This document shows positions 44,469-49,473 of a stretch of 64,000 nt of DNA, one piece after another; the first letter of the stretch is position 1, and every line of letters begins with the position of its first letter. The translations under genes were made by a program, and so were the position numbers. The DNA is from an uncultured Bacteroidia bacterium (lineage in GTDB: Bacteria > Bacteroidota > Bacteroidia > Bacteroidales > UBA932). The DNA lies in assembly GCA_902773925.1 (NCBI GenBank), contig CACYGI010000002.1, forward strand, positions 224,990 through 288,989. The letters are read 5' to 3'. A model generated the notes under the pieces. It worked only from the letters and a program-made list of their open reading frames with translations. It was not told the DNA's origin and searched no databases.

Positions 44469-47048
44469 TCAGACGATCTGGAAGTAGCCTTTCTCGAATG
44501 CGGCTGGATATAGGAATTTCGCTTCCCTATCGGCAAATTTGATGATGACGTATTTATCGTCCATCGCCATGATTTCGCCTTCGCCAAAACTCTTGTGGAT
44601 GACGGTATCGCCCACCTGTAGACGCTCCCAGGGCTCCATTTCCTCTCCTTCTGGTTCCACTATCGGCTCCGGTTCCGGTTCTTCTTCCTGAGGCTGTTCA
44701 ACCAGCTTGGAAGTGTCAATTACGGTGTCCCATCCGCCGATGAGCGTGCCGGTATGTTTGTCTATGCCGGTGTATTCAAGGCTGGAATCTTCGTAGCGCT
44801 TGAACTTGTAGACAGCATCGTTCATCAATTCGCTGTTGAAGACGCCCAGGCTGACCAGCAAGCTGAAATCCTTGAGGGTAAGGCCCGTGACCTTGCGGAA
44901 AAGTTCCGGTTCGAGTTGTTCTATGACATCCTTGAGGCAGTATTCCCGGTAATCAGTAAGGTACATGAATACAGGGATACGAGTAGCGAACTTGATAAGT
45001 TTCTCCTGTATCTCCTTTCGCTTGCTCTTGTACTCTTTCTCTTCTTCTGTGAGTTCCTTTTTCTGCTTCGGTGTGAGGTCATCACCCTTCTCTTTCTTGG
45101 TATTCTTGACGTGGTCGGATTTGTTGATGATGGTCTCAATGTCGGAATTCAGATTGCGGAAACCTTCGATGTTCATCAGGGCCTTCATAGCCTCCGGATT
45201 GTTCATCAGGCGCTGGAGGGTGGCATTGTCTACATTGACCAGGACGGCGCTTTCCCACCTGCGAGCCAACAAGGTCGCGGTGGTACCGCTCATAGCCATA
45301 TCCAGCACACCGGCTGCGTCGATTTCCTTCATGGAAGAACCATCGTAAGCAAGGATAGGCAAGAACTTGATGAACTCCTCCACCTTCTTCTCCGGGTTGG
45401 TCTCCTTGACATTGAGTTGGCAACTGTATTCCTCAACCTGGCGCAACGCCCGGTTGGGGGCGAAATCGAATACGTAGCATAGAGGCTTGAGGATTACTTC
45501 CTCACCCTCTTCATCCTTTGTGGTCCAGGGGGACTGAACGCGGAAAGCGGCCTGGAAATAGGTTTCCGGAGACGTAGTATTGCGCAGCATCATAATGCCG
45601 GTCCAGGGCTTTACGGTGACGCCCGTAGACAGCTTACCGCAAGACAGGGTGATGGTCTTGGTCTGCTGCGGTTCGCCCATCGCATCATAGACAGGATCTA
45701 CTGCCTTCGCGCCCATGCCTGGCATTGGCGGTTTCTCTGTTCCCAGTTTCAGCTCCGTGACGATATTCTCCATATAAGCGCCACGGATAAGGTCGAGCCA
45801 TTTCTGGACATACTCCTCGTGTAAGAAATAATCGCCTTCTGCCCGGAAGAACTCATTCAGGTCAAATTCATCAAACTCGCCCTGTGATGCAACCTCGCTT
45901 ATGCTATCAGGCATCTGGTATGTGAGCATAACCATCTTTGGGAGCTGGGCATAAGGGTTGTTGTCGCCCTTCCAGGCTTCCTTTGCCGCCTGCTCGTCAG
46001 AATAGGTCCAGTTGTATATCTGTTCCTCGATGAATTCTCCCGTAGAGATTGCTCGGAATGGAGTGCCTGAGAGATAAAGGTAGGCTCCGGTGCGCAGCGG
46101 CATCAAGCCTTCGTCGTACAACTCACGAGCCTCCAATTCACGAACATTGTCGGCATCCTCGGTGATAATCTCCCCAACTTCCTCTGCCCGCTTCAGGGCA
46201 GGGTCTTTTTTGTCGTAGAAGTTCTTGGCGTTCTTGCCCCAGGCTCCATAGTGATATTCATCCAGGACGATGCAGTCCCAGTTTACAGTCTGAATCCACT
46301 TGTTAGTAGCCTTAATACCGCCAGCATCATTCTTTCCAAGCACATCCTGGAATGAGGCAAAGCAGACAAATGGCTTGCGCTCATTTACGTAGTTGAATTC
46401 GCGGTCTTCCTGCTTCTGGCAAAACTGCCAGCCCTCGAAATCTTTATGGGTAAGCAGATCTTCTTCCCAGGCAGTCTTCACCGCCGGCTTGAAGGTCAAG
46501 ACCAGCACCTTCTTCCATCCCATCTTGAGAGCAAGTTGATAGGTGGTAAAGGTCTTGCCGAAGCGCATCTTGGCATTCCACAAGAAGTGTGGAATGAGGC
46601 CGCGGTTAGAGGGGTCTTTCTTGAATGAATCGAAGTATGACGTTGTTTTTGCTACAGCCCTCTCTTGCTCCGGACGCATAGGAAAAGAGTAGATGCGATC
46701 GACCATCGTCTCTTTACCTTCGACTGCAGCAATGATGGCCTTTTCGACGTTTTTCACGTCAGTAACGAACCATTCTCCTTCCGGATTACGGATATGATTC
46801 TTGCGAAGAATCTTGTGAATGAGATGGTCGTCAAAGGAGGTACCGTCTTTACGCATGGCGGGGCGCTTGAGAACAATGTGGTATGGGATATTACCAGTCA
46901 GGTTCTGTTCTTTCACGCGAGTTTCCACGTCGCGGGTGGTATAGCCCACCTTAAGCCATCCTGAATGAGCGGGCACACCTACGTGTTCGTAAGCGTATAT
47001 CATTGGGGTCTCGCTGACCCTATTGCGGAGTAGGTCTTGTGCTGCCAT
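44469..47048 (-). CDS. GIY-YIG nuclease / SF2 helicase fusion, restriction subunit
   Basis: About 859 aa. The N-terminus (about 15-115) is a GIY-YIG domain of the T5orf172 type: MIYAYEH, LKVGYT, catalytic Arg in DVETRVKEQ and Glu in PEGEWF. The SF2 helicase follows: Walker A MRFGKTFTTYQ, DEXH box CIVLDEYHYGAWG and a late motif FQAAFRVQSPW like type III Res subunits. The last ~50 residues (VGDTVIHKSFGEGEIMA) resemble the Tudor-like C-terminal domain of PcrA/UvrD. The ATG at 47048 is preferred over a TTG at 47057. It lies 33 bases after the methylase gene. The likely role is ATP-dependent cutting of unmodified DNA. Confidence 0.8.
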   Translation of the reverse strand: MAAQDLLRNRVSETPMIYAYEHVGVPAHSGWLKVGYTTRDVETRVKEQNLTGNIPYHIVLKRPAMRKDGTSFDDHLIHKILRKNHIRNPEGEWFVTDVKNVEKAIIAAVEGKETMVDRIYSFPMRPEQERAVAKTTSYFDSFKKDPSNRGLIPHFLWNAKMRFGKTFTTYQLALKMGWKKVLVLTFKPAVKTAWEEDLLTHKDFEGWQFCQKQEDREFNYVNERKPFVCFASFQDVLGKNDAGGIKATNKWIQTVNWDCIVLDEYHYGAWGKNAKNFYDKKDPALKRAEEVGEIITEDADNVRELEARELYDEGLMPLRTGAYLYLSGTPFRAISTGEFIEEQIYNWTYSDEQAAKEAWKGDNNPYAQLPKMVMLTYQMPDSISEVASQGEFDEFDLNEFFRAEGDYFLHEEYVQKWLDLIRGAYMENIVTELKLGTEKPPMPGMGAKAVDPVYDAMGEPQQTKTITLSCGKLSTGVTVKPWTGIMMLRNTTSPETYFQAAFRVQSPWTTKDEEGEEVILKPLCYVFDFAPNRALRQVEEYSCQLNVKETNPEKKVEEFIKFLPILAYDGSSMKEIDAAGVLDMAMSGTTATLLARRWESAVLVNVDNATLQRLMNNPEAMKALMNIEGFRNLNSDIETIINKSDHVKNTKKEKGDDLTPKQKKELTEEEKEYKSKRKEIQEKLIKFATRIPVFMYLTDYREYCLKDVIEQLEPELFRKVTGLTLKDFSLLVSLGVFNSELMNDAVYKFKRYEDSSLEYTGIDKHTGTLIGGWDTVIDTSKLVEQPQEEEPEPEPIVEPEGEEMEPWERLQVGDTVIHKSFGEGEIMAMDDKYVIIKFADREAKFLYPAAFEKGYFQIV

Positions 47049-47081
47049 TTTTAACAATCGTTCTGGACAAAGAAGAGATAC

Positions 47082-48590
47082 TTATTCCATCGGACGAATC
47101 ATAGATTCAATAAATGAAATCTCCTCACTCGTTAGTTTGTATTTCTCGTATAGCATTTCATCCGTCCACGGATGAGAGAAATCTTGTGTCGGGACAAATT
47201 GATAAACGCGCGCTGGAGCGTCTTGTGTGTTTTTCTTTAATAAAACACAGAATCTGAAGAAGCGTGTTTGGATGTAACTAATAACATTTTCGGCTTCTTT
47301 CTTTGTATCAAAGGGACCAATCACGACATATGTCTCGGTGCAGCAAGAATTCTTTTCTCCAATAAAAGGAGTATTAAGTATTTGGTGAGGAAAGTCCTCT
47401 CCGGCTCCATACGCTCTGGTAATGAAAACTTTATACTTGTCAACCCAGCCCACGTTCTGTGTGATTTCATTTCTACTTACATACCCCACAGACTTGTTGG
47501 CATATAGTTTAACAGCTCCATCAAAACTCTTGGGCTTTCCCGTAACAAATGTGCGGAATCCAAAAGGCTTCTGACTACTTACGTATGGAGCAAAACTCTT
47601 TTCATTGAGTTTCTGTACTTTACGAAGAATAGAAATCGCTTCGTTATACCGGATGAAGGTATCAGACCCCTTTTCCAATAAGGCTCGGGTAGAAACTGAT
47701 TTCGAATCGCCGCGGACTGTTGATACCTGGCATAAACCTTCGTTGTCCCTATCCCAAAGGAAATAACACACGCCACCTTTAATCTCAACTCCAGGGAAAC
47801 ACTCTGAAGATAGAGGATAATCAACGATAACCCGCAAATGTTTATCATGGAGCATCTCATCTCTAAAGTCATCCAATCCACGGCCTCCGGCGAACCAACG
47901 GGAAGGGACAATCATAGTCAAGTAGCGAGGCTTGAGTTTCTTGGCCTGCTGGATAAACTTGTGATAAAGAGGGATTGCTCCTCCTCTCTGCCTTTCCTCA
48001 GTATCTCCGCCGTCGCTCAGTTGATAAGGCGGATTTCCTATGATGACATCAAATTTCATATTACCGAAAAATTGCTTTGGATTGTCTGTGTGAATGAACA
48101 TATAAGCGTATTGCTCCGCTTCAGGGCCACGGTCATAGGCAGCCTGAGAAGCACCGCAATACTTGCATTTACCATTCTCCCATGTATGATTACGATTGGC
48201 ATACAGGACATTTCCGCTCTCATTATTGAATTGAGAAACGCTGTATTTCCCGTTAGCGTGTTTGCTGCAGTAGAGGGAGCGCCGCGATAAATAGGAAGTC
48301 AGTTCCGTGATGGCAAGGCCATAGACCTGAGTATGCAAGATGTGGTCGATGCGTTCCTGGCGGTCCGGAATCCGGCTTTCCAGGCCACGGTCCAGACGCT
48401 TGACAATTTCCCTTAGGAAAACACCGCTCTTGGAGACTGGGTCAAGAAATGTAGTGTTCGGGTCTCTGAACAAATCTTGCGGCAACAGATCCAGCACTTT
48501 GTTTGCCAACTCTGGCGGGGTGAACACCTCGTCGTTGCTCAAATTGGCGATGCAATTGAGAACGTCCGGATTGTAATTACTGTTCGCCAT
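47082..48590 (-). CDS. Eco57I-like adenine DNA methyltransferase
   Basis: 502 aa. Motif IV is DVIIGNPPYQLSDGG near residue 185, the signature of N6-adenine amino-methylases. A motif I-like LDPVSKSGVFLREIVKRL is near residue 48, with Ser-Lys in place of the usual Cys-Gly. A possible zinc site is formed by CSKH and CKYCG (about 110-145). The C-terminal half (about 290-500) probably holds the target-recognition domain. The start overlaps the small SAM-binding partner gene by 14 bases, so the two are translationally coupled. Confidence 0.85.
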   Translation of the reverse strand: MANSNYNPDVLNCIANLSNDEVFTPPELANKVLDLLPQDLFRDPNTTFLDPVSKSGVFLREIVKRLDRGLESRIPDRQERIDHILHTQVYGLAITELTSYLSRRSLYCSKHANGKYSVSQFNNESGNVLYANRNHTWENGKCKYCGASQAAYDRGPEAEQYAYMFIHTDNPKQFFGNMKFDVIIGNPPYQLSDGGDTEERQRGGAIPLYHKFIQQAKKLKPRYLTMIVPSRWFAGGRGLDDFRDEMLHDKHLRVIVDYPLSSECFPGVEIKGGVCYFLWDRDNEGLCQVSTVRGDSKSVSTRALLEKGSDTFIRYNEAISILRKVQKLNEKSFAPYVSSQKPFGFRTFVTGKPKSFDGAVKLYANKSVGYVSRNEITQNVGWVDKYKVFITRAYGAGEDFPHQILNTPFIGEKNSCCTETYVVIGPFDTKKEAENVISYIQTRFFRFCVLLKKNTQDAPARVYQFVPTQDFSHPWTDEMLYEKYKLTSEEISFIESMIRPME

Positions 48591-49215
48591 ATGTTTTTGC
48601 GTTTATTTTCAAAAAGTGAACGGGGGCATAGGTGAAGGCGGGGATGTCGGAGAAGAGTCCATCGCTTTCGTATTCACCAATCAGATATGAGAATTCGTAG
48701 TCGCGGCGATTGAATTTCCCATCACCCACCGGACTCCATTCACATATATGTATCCACTCACCGGAGCCATCGACTCTCTTGTAGGTGAGGGCGTCTCCCA
48801 GGATGATATTTTTAGAGAGGATGTAACGGGCTTCAATGCAGGTTTCCTTGCATTTGGATTTGAAGAGGTTGCGATACTGCTCCGTGAAGCAATCCAGCAA
48901 GCGCTGGCGGCAGGCCTCAGCATTATCAGGGAGCAATTCTATGCCGTAGATGCTGGAGATGGCCAGCACAGCATTTTCTTCGTATTGAAGTTGCGTGTAT
49001 TGCTTTGATCTGACTCGATTCTCGCAGATTGCGAGTTTGCGGCGGAGGATTTCAATAAGGAAATTGCCATCTCCGCAAGCGGGTTCGAGGAAACGGGAGT
49101 CAAGTCTCTCCGTCTCCGGTTTTACAAGGTCCAGCATGGCATTCACCTCGCGGGGGTTAGTAAACACCTCACCGTGAGCGGCCACCCTGTCCCTGGACTT
49201 GATCTGGGTGTCCAT
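48577..49215 (-). CDS. Small N6-MTase-like SAM-binding protein
   Basis: 212 aa. Clear motif I FLEPACGDGNFLIEILRRK near residue 40 and an acidic-loop-like SIYGIELLPDNAEACRQRLL near residue 90. No NPPY/DPPY motif IV is found, so the protein looks like a SAM-binding half without its own catalytic loop. It shares GEVFTNPREVNAMLDLV with the start of the next gene (DEVFTPPELANKVLDLL), so the pair may be an ancient duplication. Its ATG abuts a stem of the leader at 49218-49360. Confidence 0.8.
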   Translation of the reverse strand: MDTQIKSRDRVAAHGEVFTNPREVNAMLDLVKPETERLDSRFLEPACGDGNFLIEILRRKLAICENRVRSKQYTQLQYEENAVLAISSIYGIELLPDNAEACRQRLLDCFTEQYRNLFKSKCKETCIEARYILSKNIILGDALTYKRVDGSGEWIHICEWSPVGDGKFNRRDYEFSYLIGEYESDGLFSDIPAFTYAPVHFLKINAKTYGEQ

Positions 49216-49217
49216 TC

Positions 49218-49473
49218 TGCGCTTTCATGGGGCACTTGGTGTTTACTCGATTGACGGCTTCCAAGGGGCAAAAAAAGGCGTGGATCGTTTCCTATCCACA
49301 CCAGAGGCCCTGAGAAGCCGTGAAAATGAATAAGTCGTGTCCACGCCAAAGCGCAGACATTTACTGACTTATCCGGTCTTTCACTTTAGAAATTTCTCAG
49401 GTTTCTGGTAACCGAATAAATAGCAAATGCTATGTTAAAATATGTCTTGCAATTGTTTTGCAAGGCAAATATA
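49218..49473 (-). promoter_or_regulatory. Promoter and attenuator leader of the RM operon
   Basis: Leftward -7 TATATTTG at 49466-49473. The leader holds GGCGTGGA (49340-49347), GGTGTGGAT (49294-49302) and ATCCACGCC (49277-49285) followed by seven T (49270-49276). The second and third segments form a terminator (9 bp, one G-U). The first can pair perfectly with 8 bases of the third, giving an antiterminator. ACGGCTTC/GAAGCCGT encloses the terminator, and AAAGCGCA right before the methylase ATG can pair with TGCGCTTT in the leader ORF (49348-49355 with 49218-49225). Confidence 0.6.
49292..49360 (-). CDS. 22-codon leader ORF in the RM operon leader
   Basis: ATG at 49360, TAG at 49294-49292. The peptide starts MSALWRGHDLFIF and ends TASQGLWCG, with two Trp and one Cys near the ends. 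Its codons for WRG form the antiterminator arm, and those for WCG plus the stop form the first arm of the terminator. Ribosome position on this ORF would decide between the structures. No homolog search was possible; coding status is inferred from this arrangement. Confidence 0.45.
   Translation of the reverse strand: MSALWRGHDLFIFTASQGLWCG

Follow-up and report, generated by a model that had tools for sequence, protein, structure and literature searches.

A large candidate family of structured RNAs, absent from Rfam and strongly associated with restriction-modification (RM) operons, is the main result of this analysis of a 64,000-nt stretch of Bacteroidales DNA (the whole of which we refer to as the window) and of its relatives in other genomes. 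On the basis of the sequence comparisons described below we consider it likely, at a probability of roughly 60%, that an RM operon has the region under study as its 5' leader and that this region includes one member of this widespread cis-acting family, which would serve as a riboswitch-like attenuator. All features of the window described here are on the minus strand.

The leader RNA and its conserved fold

The leader lies in a 366-base gap bounded on one side by a PriCT_2/DUF3987 gene (51396-49582) and on the other by a methylase gene that starts at position 49215. The latter (48577-49215) encodes a 212-aa protein resembling N6-adenine methyltransferases (PF20473, 4e-6, just under the cut-off; PADLOC MTase_II, 3e-10), and is followed by a second methylase gene of 502 aa (47082-48590; Eco57I, PF07669, 2e-37) and by a gene for an 862-aa T5orf172 plus ResIII helicase/restriction-like protein (44469-47057), assigned by domain matches. 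The two methylase genes (49215-47082) overlap and their N-terminal parts are alike (36% over residues 13-73); possibly, their products are a tandem or split N6-methyltransferase pair. On the other side of the leader, the genes between 49582 and 52453 (PriCT_2/DUF3987, BT4734-like N and HTH_17) form a set typical of Bacteroidales mobile elements, of which the RM operon may be cargo. The HTH_17 ORF (52453-52160) is excisionase-like and is separated from the RM leader by two further genes, and none of the ORFs within the leader was a small HTH gene of the C type ahead of the RM genes. A phage or plasmid origin was rejected, as blastn against phages and plasmids gave zero matches.

Computer-assisted folding of the 245-nt leader (49460-49216) predicted a free energy of -84.8 kcal/mol, as compared with a mean of -55.5 for 200 shuffled sequences (z -6.6). 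Upstream we read a putative promoter element, TATATTTG (49466-49473), with the pattern TAnnTTTG, which we take to be the -7 box of the Bacteroidota promoter type; of 81 homologs, 64 had the same pattern in the 130 nt that precede the RNA, against a resampled mean of 8. The conserved portion of the leader, of about 165 nt (49269-49433; 159 bits with our covariance model R1), folds into a helix (P0), a long hairpin (P3) and a pair of small hairpins that kiss through their loops, and it begins with a further hairpin, H0 (TAGC-ATTT-GCTA, 49421-49432), in which 99.2% of the aligned cells are paired. P0 joins ACCAGA (49404-49409) to TCTGGT (49305-49300), that is, the bases that follow TTCGG in the alignment to the bases just 5' of the terminator, and encloses hairpins H1, P3 and H2. 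H1 (GAAACCTGAGAAATTTC, 49389-49405) exposes the loop CCTGAG, which pairs with the loop of H2 (GGC-TTCTCAGG-GCC, 49306-49319; 94.7% of cells paired) in a kissing helix, K. Between them, P3 (49320-49384) consists of a variable outer stem, the stem GATAAGTC:GACTTATT and the terminal hairpin TGTCTGCGC-TTTG-GCGTGGACA. Expressed for the family, H0 has the arms TAGC..GCTA, H1 the arms GAAA and TTTC about a loop of the type CCTAGG.., and H2 the form GGC-TTCCTAGG-GCC, the H1 and H2 loops being joined by K; P3 has the variable outer stem, then GATAAGTC:GACTTATC, then GTCTGCGC-loop-GCGTGGAC.

We used an alignment of 84 members (82 of them distinct), built from 59 leaders and the covariance model, to examine this fold. 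The model contained part of the structure and the alignment consequently favours the helices concerned, so that K, P0, the outer stem of P3 and the terminator pairing T2 (see below) were tested again at anchored or slid positions; K and T2 were outside the model. It should be noted that nested folding programs do not represent the kissing loop as such. Over the whole alignment, 94.7% of 3,347 cells were paired (85.4% after shuffling, 32-46% after sliding), and 367 cells carried double changes against 110 in the shuffled controls. When positions were anchored independently of pairing, K was canonical in 97% of cells against 77% after shuffling, with 93 double-change cells against 20; P0 was canonical in 77%, against 59% shuffled and 45% slid, with 165 double-change cells against 73; and the outer stem of P3, also anchored, in 77% against 42%. 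The minimum numbers of Watson-Crick replacements on the leader tree were 41 for K, 60 for P0, 85 for the P3 outer stem, and 24 and 17 for the terminator pairings T1 and T2. The kissing helix illustrates the extent of these changes: CCTGAG:CTCAGG in the window is CGTCGG:CCGACG in homolog L115 and CTAGCC:GGCTAG in L012. An alternative 5' helix, TTATTCGG:CCGGATAA, showed little covariation in the alignment beyond that of shuffles. As judged by these comparisons, the family has a conserved fold of the kind expected of a riboswitch-like leader, supported by covariation.

The covariation bears also on whether the element works mainly as DNA, namely as a patch of homology through which RM cassettes are swapped by recombination, with RNA structure being secondary. 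Closely similar leaders do stand ahead of unrelated RM genes, as such a module would predict, but homology of the DNA would not by itself be expected to give compensatory changes in long-range pairs, among them those of the kissing loop and G-U pairs. We therefore regard this explanation as improbable in the extreme as a replacement for an RNA role, although it may hold in addition to one.

Rival pairings of the terminator and the 22-codon ORF

An earlier note on this DNA, made from the letters of the window, had described a 22-codon ORF (MSALWRGHDLFIFTASQGLWCG, 49292-49360), a terminator followed by seven T, and an upstream arm complementary to the terminator's second arm, and had read them as a leader-peptide attenuator. 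All three elements are present on the minus strand. The terminator stem, T1, pairs GGTGTGGAT (49302-49294) with ATCCACGCC (49285-49277) and runs into T7 (49276-49270), the whole occupying 49270-49302. The upstream arm, GGCGTGGA (49347-49340), complements the terminator's second arm and is part of the 3' arm of P3, GGCGTGGACA (49338-49347), which is exchangeable in that it complements both the P3 5' arm and the terminator tail; the latter pairing, between the P3 3' arm and the tail before the U-tract, is T2. T2 was paired in 96.5% of cells over the 82 distinct homologs, and in 24-56% when slid by one to three columns, so that the complementarity of upstream arm and terminator proved to exceed chance. 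In 76 of 78 close members and 73 of 78 distant ones the tail has a strong partner in the P3 3' arm, which lies 45-100 nt upstream of it; hence two strands compete for that arm in almost the whole family. The T1 stem is 91-93% paired among close members and absent from most distant ones.

In the close members T1 and T2 both end at the U-tract, and the bases of P0 overlap the base of T1. In the window, where the 3' strand of P0 is supported by covariation and by prefix folding, the GGT of TCTGGT (49300-49305) is common to P0 and the first arm of the terminator. Folding of successive prefixes of the window RNA predicted that an early 5' hairpin gives way to P0, P3 and the kissing helix, with which the base of the terminator competes; in the predicted fold of the 185-nt prefix, P0 is retained and the T1 stem is cut to 6 bp. 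This anatomy is that of an attenuator or of a riboswitch expression platform, and from it we infer the switching. Considered as pairing potential, the mutually exclusive terminator pairing of a riboswitch-like leader is present.

The same observations help to assess the view that the RNA is a constitutive element of the 5' UTR, stabilising the mRNA or setting its translation and undergoing no switch. The strong fold would suit such a role, as would a stem near the start codon. The sequence AAAGCGCAGA (49216-49225), directly 5' of the methylase ATG, complements TCTGCGCTTT (49358-49349) within P3, so that the stem reaching the methylase start that the earlier note had pointed out amounts to 10 bp in the window; among 81 leaders the longest Watson-Crick helix of this type averaged 6.7, against 4.8 after resampling, which is above chance but a weaker signal than the complementarity of upstream arm and terminator. 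A plain stabiliser, however, would make the tail, the U-tract and the rival partner of the P3 3' arm superfluous, and these are kept in nearly all members; we consider a constitutive role rather unlikely, though of the explanations competing with a switch it has the best standing.

A terminated leader of about 190 nt might instead function mainly as a trans-acting small RNA, with read-through being incidental. The RNA does have its own promoter box and terminator, and as many as 18 copies per genome stand ahead of unrelated genes. Yet a gene on the same strand usually follows at a narrow distance, the start of the next ORF lying mostly 40-75 nt past the U-tract (41 of 58 strong matches and 60 of 100 weak ones to the RNA model), and no distinct class of loci that had no downstream gene stood out. 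The position of the RNA, as read from these genomes, is that of a same-strand 5' leader, and we hold a mainly trans-acting function to be unlikely.

The earlier note assigned a role to translation, according to which a ribosome on the 22-codon ORF would select between antiterminator and terminator. The ORF of the window overlaps the pairing arms, and ATG or GTG stands at the aligned start in 55 of 84 homologous leaders (47 ATG, 8 GTG). Against this, 28 leaders have ACG and one GCA at that position, the frame ranges from 4 to 80 codons and there is no common or conserved stop position; the P3 stem accounts for the bases that are conserved at the ORF start. Because start codon, length and stop are not conserved across the 84 homologs, we reject the leader peptide, and judge the ORF of the window to have no conserved leader-peptide role; a conserved short ORF is, as far as the aligned sequences indicate, lacking from this family, and ribosome-directed attenuation appears exceedingly improbable. 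In the aggregate, the alignment of homologous leaders that the earlier note had called for shows conservation of the arms and of the RNA fold and not of the ORF. The idea of an attenuator survives, with its exclusive helices and terminator-like end, and its coupling to translation does not; similarly, the complementarity of the proposed antiterminator arm is real, but the rival partner of that arm is the P3 5' arm and not a segment covered by a ribosome.

Distribution and downstream genes

The RNA model matched at least 137 genomes among 399 from the same family, at least 101 among 393 from the order and, in a draw of 395 genomes across the phylum, at least 38, one of which was outside the class. 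These counts are lower bounds because screens of more than 40 genomes employed strict filters and scored no more than seven candidates per genome. Of the Bacteroidales genomes tested, roughly one in four to one in three carry the RNA, with up to 18 copies in one 2-Mb genome.

Samples of 300 same-family genomes were searched with the leader as DNA and with the methylase as protein, and the 2 sets of genomes recovered overlap but differ. Downstream of the leaders found by DNA search were EcoRI-type methylases with a DUF262-like gene, another methylase with a T5orf172 helicase, a type III Mod-like gene and others. Nearly all close Bacteroidales homologs of the methylase for which enough upstream sequence was available also have the leader, and more divergent Bacteroidales copies have a weak, correctly placed match. 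The leader was absent from six genomes with relatives of the methyltransferase, namely two labelled as Methylobacter and one each as Clostridia, Flammeovirgaceae (which itself belongs to the Bacteroidota), Alphaproteobacteria and Pyrinomonadaceae. We considered the leader as an integral part of the RM system and discarded the idea, as methyltransferase relatives in other lineages lack it and it occurs with other genes.

By our own reading of the cluster tables, about 40 of the 58 strong matches that were found with the RNA model only and had a readable downstream gene precede RM genes. They make up nine clusters of proteins that BLAST does not link to one another (13 EcoRI-type, 10 split methyltransferases, 4 N4/N6, 4 Dcm, 3+2+2 type I/IIG/MmeI-like, and single cases), and the types represented also include type III/N4-N6 and PLD-type systems. 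Among 100 weaker matches, about 11 precede RM genes and many of the others precede genes for secreted proteins, lipoproteins or BspA-type leucine-rich-repeat (LRR) proteins. Two related 2-Mb genomes (G668 and G476; L217-L236) have 13-18 copies of the weaker class before BspA-type LRR surface-protein and RM genes. The proposal that the element controls the RM operon is accordingly to be qualified: it does precede the RM operon of the window, but it is not specific to that operon, being found also before many unrelated RM types and before genes other than RM.

RM types are intermixed on the leader tree, from which it follows that leader and enzyme have been exchanged separately. Supported pairs include L008/L117 and L003/L115, and the leaders L008 and L117, which are sisters, precede a split-type and an EcoRI-type system, respectively. 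A further leader, L155, is near that of the window (about 0.1 changes per column) and what follows it looks like no more than the opening codons of an EcoRI-type methylase (MAKNTNLGTA), which suggests that an RM cassette was lost behind a retained leader.

Relation to known systems and a possible mode of control

The order and amount in which RM genes are expressed have to be right, and the control known for them is mostly by DNA-binding C proteins or by methylase autorepression. The present leader resembles the control of type II RM systems by these means in that putative control is exerted from the sequence ahead of the methylase; it differs in operating at the level of RNA, in serving many enzymes with one leader and in having no C-protein-like ORF. 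With leader-peptide attenuators of the trp type it shares a 5' leader, rival hairpins and a terminator before the operon, but not a conserved leader peptide. Aptamers with kissing loops, such as those of the purine type, are known from riboswitches that attenuate transcription, and to such riboswitches the likeness extends to a closing helix that overlaps an intrinsic terminator, to loop-loop kissing, to strand exchange with the expression platform and to several copies per genome before different genes. Unlike known riboswitches, this RNA matches no Rfam aptamer, and instead of a single metabolic pathway it has RM and surface-protein genes as its putative targets.

Searches of Rfam 15 at gathering and relaxed thresholds placed no family on the RNA itself. 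Matches to DUF805 and DUF805b (RF03081 and RF02914; candidate cis-regulatory RNAs that are likewise upstream of genes in Bacteroidota) were set aside as its identity, since they adjoin the RNA and none lies on it. These matches, in two loci (L177:1605-1797; L266:3454-3522 and 2847-2917), are 24-155 nt downstream of the RNA, and in some species the motifs may belong to a larger leader; DUF805 and DUF805b are short, separate from the new RNA, with which they have no match, and were not found in the window. The Bacteroidota transcriptome papers and structured-RNA surveys consulted contained no matching description. The surveys list thousands of unnamed candidates, and an entry for this RNA is possible there, for example among the 3,161 candidates of one survey (PMC8040213) or in another (PMC9723704), which has 64 structured 5' regions.

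The RNA probably acts as an on/off control where the message begins. The compact fold of P0, P3 and the kissing loops would be held by a ligand, a protein or a folding condition, and, when so held, would keep the tail, or else the terminator base, from entering a full terminator stem, whereupon RNA polymerase would continue into the methylase genes. Failing that, pairing of the tail in T1 or T2 would stop transcription and leave a short RNA of about 190 nt. Such a mechanism would require no ribosome on the leader ORF. Both the direction proposed here (fold = ON) and the nature of the signal are guesses. In the weaker class of matches RM and secreted-protein genes are mixed, with no single metabolic theme that points to a ligand. 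Sensing of SAM, which would form a link to the methylases, is weakened as a candidate by the many members that precede non-methylase genes.

The presence of the same leader before many unrelated RM cassettes implies that control travels separately from the enzyme. It is possible, and we put this forward tentatively, that the family constitutes a new Bacteroidota class of riboswitch or protein-sensing RNA whose regulon comprises anti-phage RM systems and surface proteins. The family would also provide a defined and testable orphan regulatory RNA, of which many copies exist naturally in Bacteroidota from the gut, the rumen and the environment. If the reading is true, one intracellular signal would set both the DNA-restriction defence and the proteins of the cell surface, with defence cassettes being plugged behind a common RNA switch, and a shared, horizontally reused RNA leader would be a general route by which newly acquired defence genes are placed under existing control of the cell.
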